Of a DNA stretch of 64,000 nt, positions 4,797 to 12,585 are shown in pieces. Every line of letters begins with the position of its first letter. The stretch's first letter is position 1. The notes under the pieces are model-generated. The model saw only the letters and a program-made list of their open reading frames with translations. It had not been told where the DNA came from and ran no database searches. Position numbers and translations under genes: made by a program. The stretch covers positions 496,001 to 560,000 of the forward strand of contig NZ_CP023068.1 in NCBI RefSeq assembly GCF_002288525.1. Direction: 5' to 3'. This DNA is from Sinorhizobium sojae CCBAU 05684. GTDB lineage: Bacteria > Pseudomonadota > Alphaproteobacteria > Rhizobiales > Rhizobiaceae.

Positions 4797-6017
4797 TCAG
4801 CTTTGGCTCGCAAGATATTCGTCGAGCCGGTCGGGGTCGAATATTCGTCCATCGAAAAAGCCGTCGGGGCCGAGTACGAGCCCCTTCTCGGAAGCGCCCA
4901 CGGGTGCCGCGGCTGTCAGTGCTCCTTCGACCTTCATATTGGCGCCCGGCATTGGCGCGGCCATCGGCTTTAATGCCTGGCGATAGATATCGGGGCGATA
5001 AGTGTCGCGCGCGCGCTCGGCCTGGGCGGGGGAATGCTCCGCGTGGCCCCAGCGGACCATCTGGCTGTAGAACCAGAGGGCGTGGCTCTGCCAGGGAAAG
5101 GTCGCTCCCTTTGCATGCGGCACGAAGAATTCCGGGATCGCGTCAGCTGCGCCGTCCCCAAGCGCCAAATGCCCGGTGAGGATCGGCATCAGCCTTTCGC
5201 GTGGAAGGCCCAGATGCTCAGCGGGGCTCATCAGCGCGGCGAGTTCTTCATGATTGGTAGTGTCGCCGCACCAGGTCGAGCTGCGATAAAGCGCCCGCAG
5301 CAGGGCGTCCAGCGCCGGGCGGTGTTCCGTGGCGAATCGAGCCGAGACGCCGAGCACCTTTTCGGGGCTGAGACGCCAGATCGACGCCTTGGTGGTGGCA
5401 ATGCGCCCCGCGCCGCCTGCAATGGCAACGCTGTTCCAGGGTTCGCCGGCGCAGAAGCCGTCGATCGCGCCGGTCGCCAGCGCATCCGCCATGAGCGAGG
5501 GCGGAACCACGACGATCTCGACATCCCTTTCCGGGTCGATCCCGCAGGCTGAAAGCCAGTAGCGCAATTCGTAATTATGGCCTGAGAAGGGGTGGACGAC
5601 GGCAAAGCGCAGCGGCGGCTCGCCCGCGGCACGGCGGTACTCGACGACCTGACTGAGCGCTGTGCCGTTTGCGCCCGGATCGGTGCCGGGGCCGGCACCC
5701 TTCCCAACCATGTGCCCCCAAAGGTCGCGCGAGACCGTGACGGCATTGCCGCCGAGCCCGAGCGCGAAGGGTGCGACAAGCTCCAGCGATAGCGGCGTCA
5801 AGCCCAGATTGGATGCAATCGGCATGGGGGCCAGCATATGCGCGGCCTGGAACTGACCGACCGCGATCCGGTCGCGGATGTTCGCCCAGGAAGTTTCCCG
5901 AACGAGTTGCACCGAAAGGCCTTCTTCGCCGGTAAAGCCTTTCTCGACGGCGGCAATCAGGACCGCGCTGTCGAAGAGCGGCATGTAACCGAGAGTGATG
6001 TCGGCGGTGGCAGCCAT
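4797..6017 (-). CDS. nasS: Nitrate/nitrite sensor NasS
   Basis: A 406-residue homologue of NrtA-type binding proteins that starts MAATADITLGYMPLFDSAVL with no signal peptide, so it is expected to be cytoplasmic. It keeps the [13 protein letters not shown] and GFCAGEPWNSVA family segments. In characterised bacteria NasS holds the antiterminator NasT inactive until nitrate or nitrite binds. Its ATG follows the nasT stop without a gap (TGAATG), so the pair should be translationally coupled and made in balanced amounts. The missing export signal and the partner gene separate it from the periplasmic transporter component nrtA next door. Confidence 0.9.
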   Translation of the reverse strand: MAATADITLGYMPLFDSAVLIAAVEKGFTGEEGLSVQLVRETSWANIRDRIAVGQFQAAHMLAPMPIASNLGLTPLSLELVAPFALGLGGNAVTVSRDLWGHMVGKGAGPGTDPGANGTALSQVVEYRRAAGEPPLRFAVVHPFSGHNYELRYWLSACGIDPERDVEIVVVPPSLMADALATGAIDGFCAGEPWNSVAIAGGAGRIATTKASIWRLSPEKVLGVSARFATEHRPALDALLRALYRSSTWCGDTTNHEELAALMSPAEHLGLPRERLMPILTGHLALGDGAADAIPEFFVPHAKGATFPWQSHALWFYSQMVRWGHAEHSPAQAERARDTYRPDIYRQALKPMAAPMPGANMKVEGALTAAAPVGASEKGLVLGPDGFFDGRIFDPDRLDEYLASQS

Positions 6018-6611
6018 TCAGGGGTCCTCCAGCAATCCCGCCGCAAGCACCAGGCTCTGCGCGATCTCGGCAATTTTGCGATTCTGGTTCATCGCGGTCG
6101 TGCGCAGGAGCTTATAGGCCTCTTCCTCGCCGATGCCGCGCGATTTCATCAGGATGCCCTTGGCGCGGTCGATCACCTTGCGGTCCGCAAGCTCGCTGCG
6201 CGCTTCCGCCAACTCGCGCTCCATGCGCGAGAAGGCGTTGAAGCGGCCAATTGCCATGTCGAGGATCGGCTTTACCCGCTCCTGCCGCAGCCCGTCGACC
6301 ACATAGGCGGAGACGCCGGCATCGATGGCCGCCTCGATCATGCTGCTGTCGGAGCGGTCGACGAACATGGCGATCGGGCGCTTGACCGAGCGGGAGAGCT
6401 GAAACATGCTCTCCAGCAAGTCGCGGTTGGGGTTTTCCAGATCGATGACGATCACGTCCGGCTGCAGCCGTTCAATGACGCGCCCGACGCCGTGGACATC
6501 GTGAACGACACTGACCCGGCTGTGGCCGGCATTGTGCAGCCCGGCCTCGATGATCGAGGCACGGATGGCGTTCTCGTCAATCACCAGAATGGTCAGGTCG
6601 CGATGAGTCAT
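6018..6611 (-). CDS. nasT: Nitrate-responsive antiterminator NasT (receiver-like plus ANTAR)
   Basis: A 197-residue two-domain regulator. Residues 1-120 form a receiver-like domain (LTILVIDENAIRASIIEAGL, then VIVIDLENP around the usual phospho-Asp position). Residues about 128-190 form an ANTAR RNA-binding domain with the patterns DRAKGILMKSRGIGEEEAY and LLRTTAMNQNRKIAEIAQ. When released by NasS it binds a paired-hairpin RNA and prevents termination in nitrate-assimilation leaders; a matching target lies upstream of nrtA. No convincing Shine-Dalgarno precedes the start. Instead a perfect 16-base palindrome sits 1 base upstream, which may limit its translation. Confidence 0.92.
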   Translation of the reverse strand: MTHRDLTILVIDENAIRASIIEAGLHNAGHSRVSVVHDVHGVGRVIERLQPDVIVIDLENPNRDLLESMFQLSRSVKRPIAMFVDRSDSSMIEAAIDAGVSAYVVDGLRQERVKPILDMAIGRFNAFSRMERELAEARSELADRKVIDRAKGILMKSRGIGEEEAYKLLRTTAMNQNRKIAEIAQSLVLAAGLLEDP

Positions 6612-6761: not shown

Positions 6762-7808
6762 TCAAAGAGTCGCCAGGGTACGGTTTGGCACCCTGCCGCG
6801 ATAGAGTTCCTGTAGGTGAAGCTTGTTCTCCAGCGCGGTAATGACCTCGTCGCTGAAGTCCACGCCAACGATAGCCGCAATCTCGGGGAATCCACCGGGT
6901 GTGAAGACGTTGACCTCCAGCACCTTGTCGCCGACGATGTCGAGACCGACCAGGAACATGCCGTCTTCTACGAGCTTGGGACGAAGCTTTTCGGCGATTG
7001 CGAGAACCTCCGGTGTAATGGTGGCGGCTTCGGGCCTCCCGCTGGCGTGGATATTCGAGCGAACGTCGCCCTTTGCCGGGATGCGCCGAAAGGCGGCGTA
7101 CACGCCGTCGCGCTCGAGTGGCCGTCCATTCATGAGGAAGAGGCGGATGTCTCCTGCGACCGCATCCGGCAGAAAGTCCTGTGCTATCAGATAACCGCCA
7201 CCGCTGGCGACCTCGAAGATCTGGTTGAGGTTGACTTCGTCCTTGGATCCGATCTTGAAGACGTTCTTGCCGCCGGAGCCTTGCAGGGGCTTCAGTACGA
7301 CGCCGCGCGAATGGCTGTCGATGAACGCCCGGATTTCTTCGATACTTCTGGAGATCAGCGTCGTCGGCCGTACGAGCTCAGGAAAGCCCTGGAAATAGAG
7401 CTTGTTCTGCGCAAGCGCCAAGCCTTCGGGGTCATTGAGGACGATTATGCCGCGCGCAGCCGCCAGCCGTCCAAAGTTCGTGCCGACATAAACCGCCCAG
7501 GGGCGGCTGTCTGCATCTTCGGAGGGGTCGTTTCGCAGAAAAAGCACATCGACCTCGCCCAACTCGATCGTGCTGATTTTCGCCTGCTTGCTCTTCAGGG
7601 CACCAAGCAACGTCTCGGGCTTCTTCGGCTTCGCGCCGTCCAAAGTCGTCGCGCGGATCAGCATGCTGTCGTCGGGGCGCAGTACGAAATCTCCCGGCGT
7701 GACGTAGCAGACCTCGTGGCCGCGCGCGAGCGCGGCCAGCGCCAGCCATGTCGTAGTATAGTAAGGCGCCTCGCCTTCGATGGAATTGACGAAAAAGGCG
7801 ATGCGCAT
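6762..7808 (-). CDS. GshB-like ATP-grasp ligase
   Basis: A 348-residue ATP-grasp protein resembling glutathione synthetase. The N-terminus (MRIAFFVNSIEGEAPYYTTT) matches the GshB substrate domain. The ATP-binding region includes GVVLKPLQGSGGKNVF (about 180-195), and the metal/substrate segment is DKVLEVNVFTPGGFPEI. Such enzymes ligate an amino acid or amine to a carboxylate through an acyl phosphate. It is the last gene of a three-gene operon after a DUF1704 metalloprotease and an N-formylglutamate amidohydrolase-like protein. That setting makes it unlikely to be the housekeeping glutathione synthetase. The start codon is chosen for homology; a longer upstream reading overlaps the preceding gene. 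The true substrate is unknown. Confidence 0.8.
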   Translation of the reverse strand: MRIAFFVNSIEGEAPYYTTTWLALAALARGHEVCYVTPGDFVLRPDDSMLIRATTLDGAKPKKPETLLGALKSKQAKISTIELGEVDVLFLRNDPSEDADSRPWAVYVGTNFGRLAAARGIIVLNDPEGLALAQNKLYFQGFPELVRPTTLISRSIEEIRAFIDSHSRGVVLKPLQGSGGKNVFKIGSKDEVNLNQIFEVASGGGYLIAQDFLPDAVAGDIRLFLMNGRPLERDGVYAAFRRIPAKGDVRSNIHASGRPEAATITPEVLAIAEKLRPKLVEDGMFLVGLDIVGDKVLEVNVFTPGGFPEIAAIVGVDFSDEVITALENKLHLQELYRGRVPNRTLATL

Positions 7809-7818
7809 TTGCCACTCC

Positions 7819-9705
7819 TTATTGTTGCAGCATATCCAGCGGAGCCATTCCCGCGTGCGCTCTGGCAAGCCGGGACGGTGCTTCCGGATGATCGAGAAAT
7901 ATAGGGCCGACCGACGGCGCCCCAAGCAGACCGCGTGCGTGCAATTCCTGCATGACGCCGAAATGCGAAGCCGCAATTTTTCCCATCCAGAAGGGTTCCA
8001 GCGTTCCGCCGTCTGCCAGATGTTCGAGGAGTTGCAGTAGTCCGCGCAGATAGATCGCGTCCTTGACCAGGCCCCCACCACGATAGACGCGGAGGGCGAT
8101 GTTGAAAGCCTCCGTCTTCACGAAGCCGTAGTCACCTACGAGGACCCGGTAGACTTCCGGCAGGGAGGCGCCGTCGAGCATGGCGGCGCTGGCAACCACA
8201 CGGCCAGCGATGAGGCGAAGCCGCTGGCCCGTCATGCCGCCGGATAGATATTCAGCAAAGACCGCAAGCCCCTCTTGCATGCCCTCGTACCCAGCGAGAC
8301 CTGAGCGAAACAGGCGCAGACCTTGAGCTGATCCGTTGAAATATGTCAGGAGGTGAACGCCGATCTCATGGCTGAGGATAGGCTCGACACGACTTGCGTC
8401 CATGACGGTGCTTCGAGCGATCAACAGCCTTCTTCCCGAAACCAGCAATCCGGCGGGAAGGTCGTCCCGCACCTCGACGCTCGCTTCGAAGCCGGCGCAA
8501 CGGCGCGCATATTCGGAGATCATTTCGCGTGCCCGCTTCTCGACGACATCCCAGTCTGCGGGCTGTTCGGCTATTCGTGCGGCATCCGAGACGACGCCCT
8601 GGCTCCGGGCGAGAATATCTTGGGCGGTCCGCAAGAGGCTTGGCTCCACCGGGCCGTAAAGGGCACGGCCGAATTCAACGAACTTCGGGGTGTCGCGGGC
8701 CGACAGCATAGACAGCTGCAGATCGAGCTCCTGCTGCTTCTCGCGATAAAGCTGGTAGAGGACGGGATCCTCGAGGTGCTCGAACGGGACCGAAAAGAGC
8801 TTCTTTTTCGCGGCATCGACTTGCAGGACCAAGGGTCGGTAGAGAAATCGCGGCGCACGCTCGCAGTCGCTCGCTGCAAATTCGCTCCATGCTGCTTCCG
8901 CATTGATCGGTGTAACTGCGAGGAGGAAATCGAAACTCGAAGCGATTTCATCGATACTTCGGTCGGTCCGCACCACCGCATCGATGAATGCTTTCCTTCC
9001 GAGGGCGCGATGCGTCGAAACGGCGATGCTGCCCGTCGCCCCGGCGAAGGCCGCAAAGGCATGCAGGACAGCATCAAAAATGTTGGCGATCAGTCGCTCG
9101 CGAAGCTCCGGATAAACCTTGCCGGACTGGCGTTGACGGTAGATCGGTGCAAAGCGCACGCGCATCAGCGGAAATGGGATTTCGAGCGGTTCATCCGCCT
9201 CGCCCCGGTATTCCGGCCACTCACGAAACTCGACCTGCGGCGTGCGGAATTTGCCTGGGATCACCTCCGCTGCATCGATAAACGCCCTCGCGGCTGCCTG
9301 GATATGGCCTTTGCTTCCGGCCATGACTTCGATCTTGAAAGGCGGTAGCAGCGGCGCGTTGTCGGTCAGCAGTTCGTCGCGGGCGAATTCGCCTATTTCG
9401 AGCACCATGAAAGCACCAAAGCGGCGCTCGAGCAGCATTCCGATAGCCCTAACTATTGGCGTGGCGGCGACGGCATCGGGCGCGAGCAGATGGGACGCGT
9501 TCGCCTGGGCTATCTCGCGGGCAACAGGATCCTCGTCGCCCGAGACATGGACGCAGAGAAAGGGCAATGCCCGATCGATGTGGAGCCGACCGCCGCCGGC
9601 GAACTCCTTGCGCACGGCTTTGCCCGCTTGGATCGAGCTCAATACTTCATCGAGCCATTCCGGAGGGTTCGCATCCCTCGATGCGCCTGCATTCGCCAGC
9701 TTCAT
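7819..9705 (-). CDS. DUF1704 (QEGLA-motif, MATCAP-like) zinc metalloprotease
   Basis: A 628-residue protein of the family annotated as flavohemoglobin expression-modulating QEGLA-motif protein. The C-terminal half contains HEIGVH (446-451), an HExxxH zinc site, and MQEGLA (476-481), which supplies the further Glu ligand. Eukaryotic DUF1704 members (MATCAP) are carboxypeptidases that remove the C-terminal tyrosine of tubulin. The bacterial substrate is unknown. The N-terminal 400 residues have no motif I recognise. The start overlaps the stop of the upstream amidohydrolase gene (ATGA), and the ATP-grasp gene begins 10 bases after its stop, so the three are one operon. A peptidase acting on the product of the neighbouring ligase is a possible role. 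Confidence 0.82.
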   Translation of the reverse strand: MKLANAGASRDANPPEWLDEVLSSIQAGKAVRKEFAGGGRLHIDRALPFLCVHVSGDEDPVAREIAQANASHLLAPDAVAATPIVRAIGMLLERRFGAFMVLEIGEFARDELLTDNAPLLPPFKIEVMAGSKGHIQAAARAFIDAAEVIPGKFRTPQVEFREWPEYRGEADEPLEIPFPLMRVRFAPIYRQRQSGKVYPELRERLIANIFDAVLHAFAAFAGATGSIAVSTHRALGRKAFIDAVVRTDRSIDEIASSFDFLLAVTPINAEAAWSEFAASDCERAPRFLYRPLVLQVDAAKKKLFSVPFEHLEDPVLYQLYREKQQELDLQLSMLSARDTPKFVEFGRALYGPVEPSLLRTAQDILARSQGVVSDAARIAEQPADWDVVEKRAREMISEYARRCAGFEASVEVRDDLPAGLLVSGRRLLIARSTVMDASRVEPILSHEIGVHLLTYFNGSAQGLRLFRSGLAGYEGMQEGLAVFAEYLSGGMTGQRLRLIAGRVVASAAMLDGASLPEVYRVLVGDYGFVKTEAFNIALRVYRGGGLVKDAIYLRGLLQLLEHLADGGTLEPFWMGKIAASHFGVMQELHARGLLGAPSVGPIFLDHPEAPSRLARAHAGMAPLDMLQQ

Positions 9706-10547
9706 CGGCCCGCCTCCAATTCGTCGAGGAGTATCGGCACTGCCGATCGTACCAGCCGCCTGAGCGCCAGGAGGACGTCGCCACGCGGCTCGCCCGTCCA
9801 CTCATCCATGAAGATTTTCTTGAATTCGACGGCAATTGCACACCCCGTGTTCGGAAAGTGCTCGTGGATGAAGCGAGTCTGCTCGCCACGGCCCTGAAAT
9901 GCGATGTTTTCGCGAACGTCCAATCGGCCGCCGGGAAAGTCGAAGGCGCGCAGCGCCTCCACAAGGCGGTCCACCACAGGCGACCATCTTCGCCGGTCCA
10001 TGGAGAATGTGCCTATATTGATGTCCGGCGCTTCTGCCGGGAGCATCGGCTCCGATCCTGGGCCCGCCCGGCGATGATTGTAGCTATGCACATCGAGAAC
10101 GACGAAGCGTCCGTGACAGCGCTCGGTTCCGGCGAGGAACGAATGCAGCATCGCGTAGTATTCGTCATGCATGGCAAGGGATGGTTCGACGATATCCGAC
10201 GGCGGCTCCGTCGCCCAGACCGTAAGGCCCCAGGCCTGTTCAGGGCGCAGGTAGACGGCTCCGTTTCTCGGCCGGTTGATATCGACTTCAAAGCGCGAGC
10301 GGTGAACGACGATCCGGTTCGGGATGTCGCGGATCAGGAATTCGGTGAACGGATCTTCCTCTCGAAGGCGCTCTGCTTCAGAAAGCGCAAACAGGCTCCG
10401 CACTGCGTCGCGAGCCATATGCCCATTGTGAATGGCGGTTGCGACGACGGGCGAGTCGCCGCGGTGCTGCGTCCACCATTCGCCGGTGACAGGTAGCGCG
10501 AGAGGCGCTTTCGAATCTGCGGATACGCTCATCTCCAACCCTTGCAT
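9702..10547 (-). CDS. N-formylglutamate amidohydrolase family protein
   Basis: A protein of about 281 residues with the N-formylglutamate amidohydrolase fold pattern: AIHNGHMARDAV near residue 40, an acidic and Arg-rich DINRPRNGAVY segment, and VLDVHSYNHRRAG around residue 150, which resembles the zinc-binding DxHS motif. The family hydrolyses N-formyl-glutamate in histidine degradation, but no hut genes are nearby. It is the first gene of a DUF1704/ATP-grasp operon, which points to another amide substrate. The ATG taken gives MQGLEMSVS; an internal ATG five codons later has the better-spaced AAGGG and may be the true start. Confidence 0.75.
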   Translation of the reverse strand: MQGLEMSVSADSKAPLALPVTGEWWTQHRGDSPVVATAIHNGHMARDAVRSLFALSEAERLREEDPFTEFLIRDIPNRIVVHRSRFEVDINRPRNGAVYLRPEQAWGLTVWATEPPSDIVEPSLAMHDEYYAMLHSFLAGTERCHGRFVVLDVHSYNHRRAGPGSEPMLPAEAPDINIGTFSMDRRRWSPVVDRLVEALRAFDFPGGRLDVRENIAFQGRGEQTRFIHEHFPNTGCAIAVEFKKIFMDEWTGEPRGDVLLALRRLVRSAVPILLDELEAGR

Positions 10548-11874: not shown

Positions 11875-12585
11875 TTAAATCCGGTCGTGCAGCCGCGTCC
11901 AGAGACTGGTCGCATTGAACGTCCATCTCAGCCGCGATTCATCCGCTGCTGACATAAGATTTAGCGCGTCCAGGAGTTCGAGAGCGTCCTTGCGCTTCTG
12001 GTCGACATATCCGGTGCGGAGCGCCGTTGCCAGAGCTTCGCGGTCCGCATGCGGCGGAAGCCTTGCGCCTGCGGTGATAGCGGACCAGGTGCGCTCCTTG
12101 TAGAAGAGCTTGGCGGCGGCGTGCTCGATCGCTGCCGCGTGTTCAGCCGTAATTGTTTGCCGCTCCACGAAGCGCCGCAGTGTTACCCGGACGTTGACGA
12201 GGGGAAGGCTGAGTGGCAGGTAACCGAGTTCTTCCGGCGCATGCAGTAGTGCCACATCGGAATCGTCTGCGGTCTCTCCCGCCGCGTATTGGTGATAGAT
12301 TGCGCCGATCCCGACCATGCCGAAGACGGCGCATTCGGCGGCGCGCAGGGCCCCCATGCTCGCCGCGCCAAGAACGGCAACGCCTTGTGACAGCGCGAAC
12401 AGGATTTCCTTGTGCCAGACCGGCGCGACATGCTCGAAATTCCCGTCGACAAGGCCAATTGCAGTGGCGCCGTCGCGCGCGGCGCGGAGTATATCACCCT
12501 GCCGGGCGGGCGGGCGAATGACGATCGCCTCGCCGGCCATTTGCGCGGCATCGGGAACCGTTGGGCCGACAAAGACGACTTTCAT
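11875..12585 (-). CDS. TfuA domain protein (orphan)
   Basis: A 236-residue protein matching the TfuA family: MKVVFVGPTVPDA at the start, ARQGDILRAARDGATAIGLV, then VLGAASMGALRAAECAVFGM, and VALLHAPEELGYLPLSLPLV. TfuA proteins are partners of YcaO cyclodehydratases, for example in trifolitoxin production and in thioamide formation on ribosomal peptides or methyl-CoM reductase. Normally the two genes are adjacent. Here no YcaO gene flanks it: upstream is a small XRE regulator and downstream the sRNA. It may serve a YcaO encoded elsewhere or be a relic, but the frame is intact. The start ATG is clear. Confidence 0.85.
   Translation of the reverse strand: MKVVFVGPTVPDAAQMAGEAIVIRPPARQGDILRAARDGATAIGLVDGNFEHVAPVWHKEILFALSQGVAVLGAASMGALRAAECAVFGMVGIGAIYHQYAAGETADDSDVALLHAPEELGYLPLSLPLVNVRVTLRRFVERQTITAEHAAAIEHAAAKLFYKERTWSAITAGARLPPHADREALATALRTGYVDQKRKDALELLDALNLMSAADESRLRWTFNATSLWTRLHDRI

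Follow-up and report, generated by a model that had tools for sequence, protein, structure and literature searches.

The 64,000-nucleotide stretch of Sinorhizobium sojae CCBAU 05684 analyzed here (contig NZ_CP023068.1, positions 496,001 to 560,000; hereafter, the window) belongs to a genome of 6.09 Mb in 3 contigs and carries a compact cassette of three minus-strand genes at window positions 6762-10547. These genes, transcribed in the order FG-MC-GS, encode an FGase-family protein (FG), a MATCAP/DUF1704 metallocarboxypeptidase (MC), and a GshB-like ATP-grasp ligase (GS), and their features are as follows.

9702..10547, minus strand: FG, a PF05013 deacylase/amidohydrolase of 281 amino acids (aa), the first gene of the cassette
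7819..9705, minus strand: MC, a TIGR02421/PF08014 metallocarboxypeptidase with an N-terminal FGase-like domain, probable start ATG 9705
8992..9702, minus strand: the N-terminal domain of MC (residues ~34-270 of the open reading frame, ORF), degenerate, FGase-like, and probably inactive
6762..7808, minus strand: GS, a GshB-like ATP-grasp ligase of the NF009110/PRK12458 subfamily, 348 aa from ATG 7808

Two of the listed gene starts are most likely too long. The listed MC ORF opens with GTG (7819-9801, 660 aa), and the likelier start, judged from the sequence, is ATG 9705, which overlaps the FG stop codon by four bases (ATGA, 9702-9705); residues 1-42 of the MC structural model had a predicted local distance difference test score (pLDDT) below 50. 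For GS, the start is most likely ATG 7808, preceded by AAGGAG at 7820-7815 and separated from the MC stop codon (TAA) by a gap of 10 bases. Promoter-like and terminator-like patterns at the cassette showed no excess over shuffles (2 vs 1.1 and 5 vs 3.9).

Conservation of the cassette within the genus and across phyla

Within the genus of the window, MC was present in 32 of 33 genomes, while it was found in 0 of the 27 other relatives of the same draw. FG, MC, and GS were contiguous in all 29 same-genus loci that were read, namely 28 fetched loci and the window itself (three of the 32 MC genomes were not fetched and are left out of this count). By comparison, the NasT/NasS-like and TfuA genes that flank the cassette in the window adjoined it in merely 2 of the 28 fetched loci; the trio, therefore, holds together while its surroundings change, and NasTS and TfuA are ruled out as cassette members. 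The overlap, the short gap, and this contiguity bear out the original prediction that the three genes are coupled.

A broader draw of 299 genomes of the phylum contained 29 with PF08014, of which 22 carried a type with neither FG nor GS nearby; the other seven, the genome of the window included, carried the long MC type or one fused to FG and came from Magnetococcales and other groups. For a closer view, 559 confirmed candidates were ordered by how closely they resemble a long-type MC, and the best 80 of them were compared; because of this ranking, the frequencies speak for the long MC type and not for DUF1704 proteins at large. These 80 loci, many of which come from metagenome-assembled genomes (MAGs), were distributed among Planctomycetota, Acidobacteriota, Bacteroidota, Calditrichota, Gemmatimonadota, Kiritimatiellae, Verrucomicrobia, Polyangiaceae, Desulfobacterales, Poribacteria, Actinomycetes, and Proteobacteria, and the nearest named relative among them was Ensifer adhaerens of the Rhizobiaceae (L186, 61-66% identical). 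GS lay near MC in 76 of the 80 and FG in 66. In the 58 loci that have 2.5 kb or more of flank at both ends, GS lay no more than 4 kb from MC in 57 and FG in 48, and the gene order FG-MC-GS was kept in 47 of these 48. Moreover, FG and MC are fused into one ORF at locus L070, and at L183, the FG C-terminus is joined in frame to GS, with the contig beginning inside this gene. FG, MC, and GS, thus, form one functional unit. Rare co-occurrence in other genomes, which would have refuted the original prediction, was not seen for the long MC type, whereas most PF08014 genomes of the phylum draw carried the type that lacks FG and GS nearby.

The short MC type, which is devoid of the N-terminal domain (L047-L068 and L078; n = 23), was kept out of the cassette counts. 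It showed no FG and a single match to the GS profile, at L059, which was rejected as a cassette ligase since it proved to be RimK (446.5 bits, cut-off 331). There, the short-type QEGLA gene is divergent from the RimK gene, which encodes the ribosomal S6 glutamate ligase (L059:3043-5617), as a possible glutamylase/deglutamylase pair. In Magnetococcales, a second MC of the long type, with neither FG nor GS, lies beside a CNNM/CorC gene and a CitMHS-type transporter gene (L071/L117), and a further ATP-grasp gene lies near the cassette in L073 (5765-6811, minus strand), L074, L075, L077, and L132, that of L073 being PF14397 (ATPgrasp_ST).

The three enzymes and an exchanged deacylase

Profile scores bore out the amidohydrolase, MATCAP-type peptidase, and ATP-grasp names first given to the three proteins. 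FG is a member of the FGase superfamily (PF05013, 85 bits; cut-off 28.9). Its score against the HutG model TIGR02017 (24.6 bits) fell far under the equivalog cut-off of 278.75, which rules out an identity as the HutG N-formylglutamate deformylase of histidine catabolism. Ten residues (H40, E64, D89, N91, R92, D152, H154, E213, E241, and K244) were invariant in all 30 aligned cassette FGs, and the metal-binding residues are presumably to be sought among these conserved positions. The AlphaFold model of FG (pLDDT 91.9) matched best, among structures of the PDB, the N-formylglutamate amidohydrolase 2q7s (template modeling [TM] score 0.71-0.74); remote structural matches were M14 carboxypeptidases and, with weaker scores (E ~0.01), aspartoacylase and aminoacylase 3.

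MC scored 311.7 bits against PF08014 (cut-off 27) and 350 bits against TIGR02421 (cut-off 338.65). The HExxxH motif (478-483, counted from the ORF start at 9801), E510 of the QEG motif, R571, K580, D581, and Y584 were kept in 32 of 32 aligned rows, so that the MATCAP-type arrangement of H478, E479, and H483 with E510, whose role is inferred, was found in every row. HExxxH is named as the TMCP motif, and human MATCAP relatives are described as cutting off C-terminal Tyr and Glu chains, in PMC10499314. In agreement with the proposed kinship, the MC model (pLDDT 86.5) matched the human MATCAP structures 7z6s/7z5g with a target TM score of 0.69-0.70, and when solved structures were searched with the MC profile, MATCAP chains were the only matches, although the sequence match to human MATCAP was weak (E 5.4e-10).

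The N-terminal domain of MC is probably a degenerate, catalytically inactive relative of FG. A profile comparison aligned the two over 137 columns with a probability of 80% and an E value of 1.4e-5, as compared to E values of 0.1-0.42 in four control comparisons, while 2q7s was merely a weak Foldseek match for the domain (E 0.03). The domain is probably inactive because the histidine facing FG H154 is gone (0 of 32 rows, with Trp in 25) and the glutamate facing E241 is partly lost (kept in 18 of 32 rows, with Arg in the window); the H40 region of FG falls outside this alignment. Some of the MC N-terminal domains do keep part of the FG catalytic positions, and the loss is not complete in every row.

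GS contains PF02951 and PF02955 (the latter at 173.5 bits) and passed the cut-off of the NF009110/PRK12458 'glutathione synthetase' subfamily (482.9-484.1 bits; cut-off 408). It remained under both glutathione-synthase equivalog cut-offs (TIGR01380, 202.3 vs 299.05 bits; NF003573, 212 vs 272 bits) and under that of the RimK alpha-L-glutamate ligase (TIGR00768, 74.9 vs 143.4 bits). The canonical GshB of this genome is a second gene located elsewhere (TIGR01380, 409.3 bits; NF003573, 454.8 bits), and a GCS2-family GshA candidate lies on contig C1 (270 bits). Since both equivalog cut-offs were missed and a GshA candidate and a canonical GshB are found elsewhere, GS is not an ordinary glutathione synthetase, an identity that would have been fatal to the original prediction. 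Among solved proteins, the nearest to GS was E. coli GshB (1gsa, E 1.4e-36), followed by RimK. Planctomycetota and Gemmatimonadota cassettes contain two old GS ligase paralogs in one cassette, and in two Planctomycetota (L107 and L110), the array is enlarged to FG-MC-GS-GS-MC-GS.

The best clue to the chemistry of the cassette appears to be an exchange of its deacylase. Ten of the 58 well-flanked loci were devoid of FG, and in six of them (L165, L170, L171, L173, L180, and L185), a gene of the AstE/aspartoacylase family lies beside GS. This assignment is based on a PF24827 score above cut-off for L173 and on profile and alignment for the other five; HGNE, DxDLNR, H, and EAGQH are conserved in all six proteins. 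The ligases of these loci formed two supported clades (Flavobacteriaceae and Algoriphagus) inside one Bacteroidota clade, a tree that fits a deacylase exchange having happened either once or twice. Known members of the FGase and AstE/aspartoacylase families take N-acyl groups off amino acids, mostly acidic ones. Because both families strip N-acyl groups, the third step of the cassette may be read as N-deacylation, and the interchangeability of the deacylase between two families suggests a small-molecule substrate.

Neighboring genes and a possible link to salt

The annotated part of the flanking-ORF clusters included MscS, CorA, MgtE, CNNM/CorC, Na/H antiporters, SLC12-like proteins, and other transporters. 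MscS was represented by 17 genes in 17 of 53 loci, compared to 0.74 expected from the PF00924 density in the same genomes (642 kb of flank in 50 genomes; Poisson P ~8e-18, relatedness uncorrected), and CorA by 8 genes in 7 loci, compared to 0.17 expected; L117/G363 was dropped from both counts as it comes from the same genome as L071/G093. The neighbor profiles were built from these same loci and the expectations were taken from Pfam, and ten of ten rechecked MscS matches were PF00924. The 17 MscS-bearing loci were spread over eight phyla. A Pfam scan of the 124 nearest neighbors, which left out 18 of 139 ORFs (five of them AstE genes), likewise placed MscS first (6) and CorA next (5, one of them placed by hand). 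Without the hand-placed ORFs (CNNM in L153 and both CNNM and CorA in L181), CorA dropped to 4, equal to LysR, and CNNM to 0, while MscS still counted 6.

Published data include probable relatives of the cassette genes. According to PMC10308900, in Photobacterium damselae a 'GshB' was up 38.4-fold and a QEGLA protein, whose gene bears an adjacent locus number, up 27.5-fold at 1% vs 3% NaCl, and RimK was up 52-fold. In Vibrio vulnificus, a table of PMC3091676 lists the COG3930 gene VV2_1203 next to the 'glutathione synthetase' VV2_1204. Taken together, the MscS, CorA, MgtE, Na/H, and cation-chloride transporter neighbors and the low-salt induction of a probable relative suggest that the cassette has a role in osmotic or ionic balance.

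In the window itself, NasT (ANTAR) and NasS-like nitrate regulators, named after PMC6616083, lie directly downstream of GS at a distance of 150 bases (4797-6611, minus strand), the first of them being as follows.

6018..6611, minus strand: NasT-like ANTAR response regulator, PF03861 + PF00072; downstream context, outside the conserved unit

On the other side, a TfuA-family gene (11875-12585, minus strand; PF07812, 152 bits; NF033432 below cut-off) lies beside a helix-turn-helix gene. It is without a YcaO neighbor, as both YcaO matches of the genome are on another contig (C1:2279822 and C1:2071340).

A possible N-acyl peptide cycle and its alternatives

We propose, with a probability of roughly 40%, that the cassette runs a cytoplasmic cycle in which a small acidic N-acyl peptide is built and broken down again, a cycle comparable to the animal N-acetylaspartylglutamate/N-acetylaspartate (NAAG/NAA) cycle and tied to osmotic or ionic balance. 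GS would use ATP to attach an amino acid, at best guess a glutamate-like one, to the acceptor's free carboxyl group, converting an acyl-amino acid to an N-acyl dipeptide. MC would reverse this step by hydrolytic removal of that C-terminal amino acid, and FG, or the AstE/aspartoacylase-family enzyme in some Bacteroidota, would split the acyl-amino acid into acid and amino acid. The degenerate FG copy at the MC N-terminus could perhaps serve as a docking or product-binding domain. The two old ligase paralogs found in one cassette suggest that some hosts, in Planctomycetota and Gemmatimonadota, may add two residues in a stepwise peptide assembly. More speculatively, acidic amino acids joined in a peptide would amount to fewer particles while keeping negative charge for potassium pairing, which would suit a low-salt response. 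The first idea about this locus, that a ligase and a carboxypeptidase follow the logic of the tubulin tyrosination cycle, is retained in its enzyme logic; nothing that we found points to its protein-tail substrate. Its further suggestion that the amidohydrolase unmasks the substrate is compatible with our findings, and FG could equally well act in the last step of breakdown. Overall, the observation behind the original prediction emerged confirmed and strengthened, and its interpretation gained partial support.

Several findings weigh against the proposed cycle. Its reactions, their directions, and the substrates are inferred from the enzyme classes and the deacylase exchange. As for the deacylase, the AstE-type protein of L165 fell under the NCBIfam cut-offs (NF003706, 70.6/170; NF002601, 67.7/180; TIGR03242, 62.7/305.65), and no deacylase was recognized in the four remaining FG-less loci (L114, L117, L146, and L169). 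No N-acyltransferase was recognized in the annotated neighbor clusters or in 25 of 151 Pfam families. The ligase of L070, a long branch in the tree, groups with canonical GshB and passes NF003573, and because of this grouping, the L070 cassette may make a product different from the others. The MscS and CorA enrichment treats loci as independent, with three of the 17 MscS loci belonging to Magnetococcales, and while it holds in other phyla, it hardly does so in the genus of the window: the first 20 kb of the window contained 0 of ten profiled neighbor families, and the 28 fetched same-genus loci showed MscS in 2 and CorA in 0. Finally, the Photobacterium and Vibrio genes are probable relatives by their annotation.

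Among the alternatives, we regard as unlikely a protein C-terminal tagging system, in which GS adds and MC removes a tail amino acid in a tyrosination or glutamylation cycle while FG acts on the released acyl-amino acid or elsewhere. MATCAP/TMCP enzymes do work on protein tails, deglutamylation included (PMC10499314), GS is a relative of RimK, which ligates glutamate to protein tails and rose along with the 'GshB' and QEGLA genes of P. damselae at low salt, and the short-type QEGLA gene of L059 is divergent beside RimK. However, the GS profile detected such a ligase gene in only that 1 of the 23 short-type loci, the annotated neighbor clusters showed no recurring protein that could be the substrate, and the human MATCAP sequence matched MC weakly. 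A deacylase that can come from either of two families is more suggestive of a small molecule; together with the tandem ligase paralogs and the ion-channel neighbors, this exchange leads us to prefer a small N-acyl peptide over a protein tail.

A mainly catabolic scavenging of acylated or formylated peptides, with GS kept for another purpose, seems quite unlikely to us. It would account for two of the three enzymes being hydrolases, for the FG fold resembling N-formylglutamate amidohydrolases (2q7s), and for the NasT/NasS-like nitrogen regulators beside the window cassette. Yet, of all the partners of MC, the ATP-using ligase is the one most regularly present (57/58), the NasTS context is restricted to the 2 fetched same-genus loci described above, and no peptide importer was recognized in the annotated clusters, where a recurring ABC cluster comes mostly from Pontibacter. 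A thiol or glutathione variant, in which GS builds a glutathione-like peptide recycled by MC and FG, fits the NCBI name of NF009110 and the E. coli GshB structure nearest to GS but is improbable given the missed synthase cut-offs, the separate GshA candidate and canonical GshB, and a survey of PF04262 and PF04107 in 51 MC-bearing genomes, many of them MAGs, that found the former in 5, the latter in 29, and neither in 17, among which are isolates of Parapedobacter, Sphingobacterium, and Algoriphagus.

Extending the N-acyl peptide cycle further, it is conceivable, albeit rather doubtful, that this widespread, undescribed bacterial cycle tunes a pool of acidic peptide that, upon salt change, serves to gate or balance mechanosensitive channels and cation transporters and that eukaryotic MATCAP detyrosinases were drawn from its carboxypeptidase. 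A limited search of main texts returned no description of the cassette, and an earlier one may exist. In one paper among these texts, 'flavohemoglobin expression-modulating QEGLA motif protein' labels an expression-table entry, and we found no evidence there against the suggestion that it is a legacy label. If the proposed cycle is correct, organisms as far apart as rhizobia, Planctomycetota, and Bacteroidota have an overlooked peptide metabolite together with the circuit that controls it, and ligases annotated as glutathione synthetase would need new names, including the strongly salt-regulated Photobacterium 'GshB' if it is a member. Bacterial MATCAP relatives would also gain a native context, which could explain the origin of the tubulin-tail enzyme chemistry. 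The unit is small and apparently soluble.

Comparison with known systems places the cassette among several partial counterparts. The animal NAAG/NAA cycle makes and breaks N-acetylaspartylglutamate by the RIMKLA/B ligase, glutamate carboxypeptidase II, and aspartoacylase. The cassette resembles it in its ATP-grasp ligase, metallocarboxypeptidase, and zinc deacylase steps, and in six Bacteroidota loci also in the AstE/aspartoacylase family of the deacylase; it differs in its MATCAP-type carboxypeptidase, GshB-like ligase, usually FGase deacylase, and operon layout. The tubulin tyrosine ligase (TTL)/MATCAP (TMCP) cycle shares a ligase and a MATCAP-family carboxypeptidase whose structures (7z6s/7z5g) the MC model fits; the cassette, however, is without tubulin, includes a deacylase and an FG-like domain, and its ligase is GshB-like and not TTL. 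Bacterial GshB has the PF02951 and PF02955 domains in common with GS, which scores below both equivalog cut-offs. In the N-acetylglutaminylglutamine amide (NAGGN) osmoprotectant 'trio' of proteobacteria, an ATP-grasp ligase works on an N-acyl dipeptide osmolyte, and a peptidase is its partner. The cassette has the same pairing in other protein families and is not that trio, as the sole TIGR03103 GNAT-ATP-grasp protein of the genome that scores above cut-off is located elsewhere (C2:1726009, 933.5 bits). The cassette belongs with the known cassettes of an ATP-grasp ligase and a peptidase.

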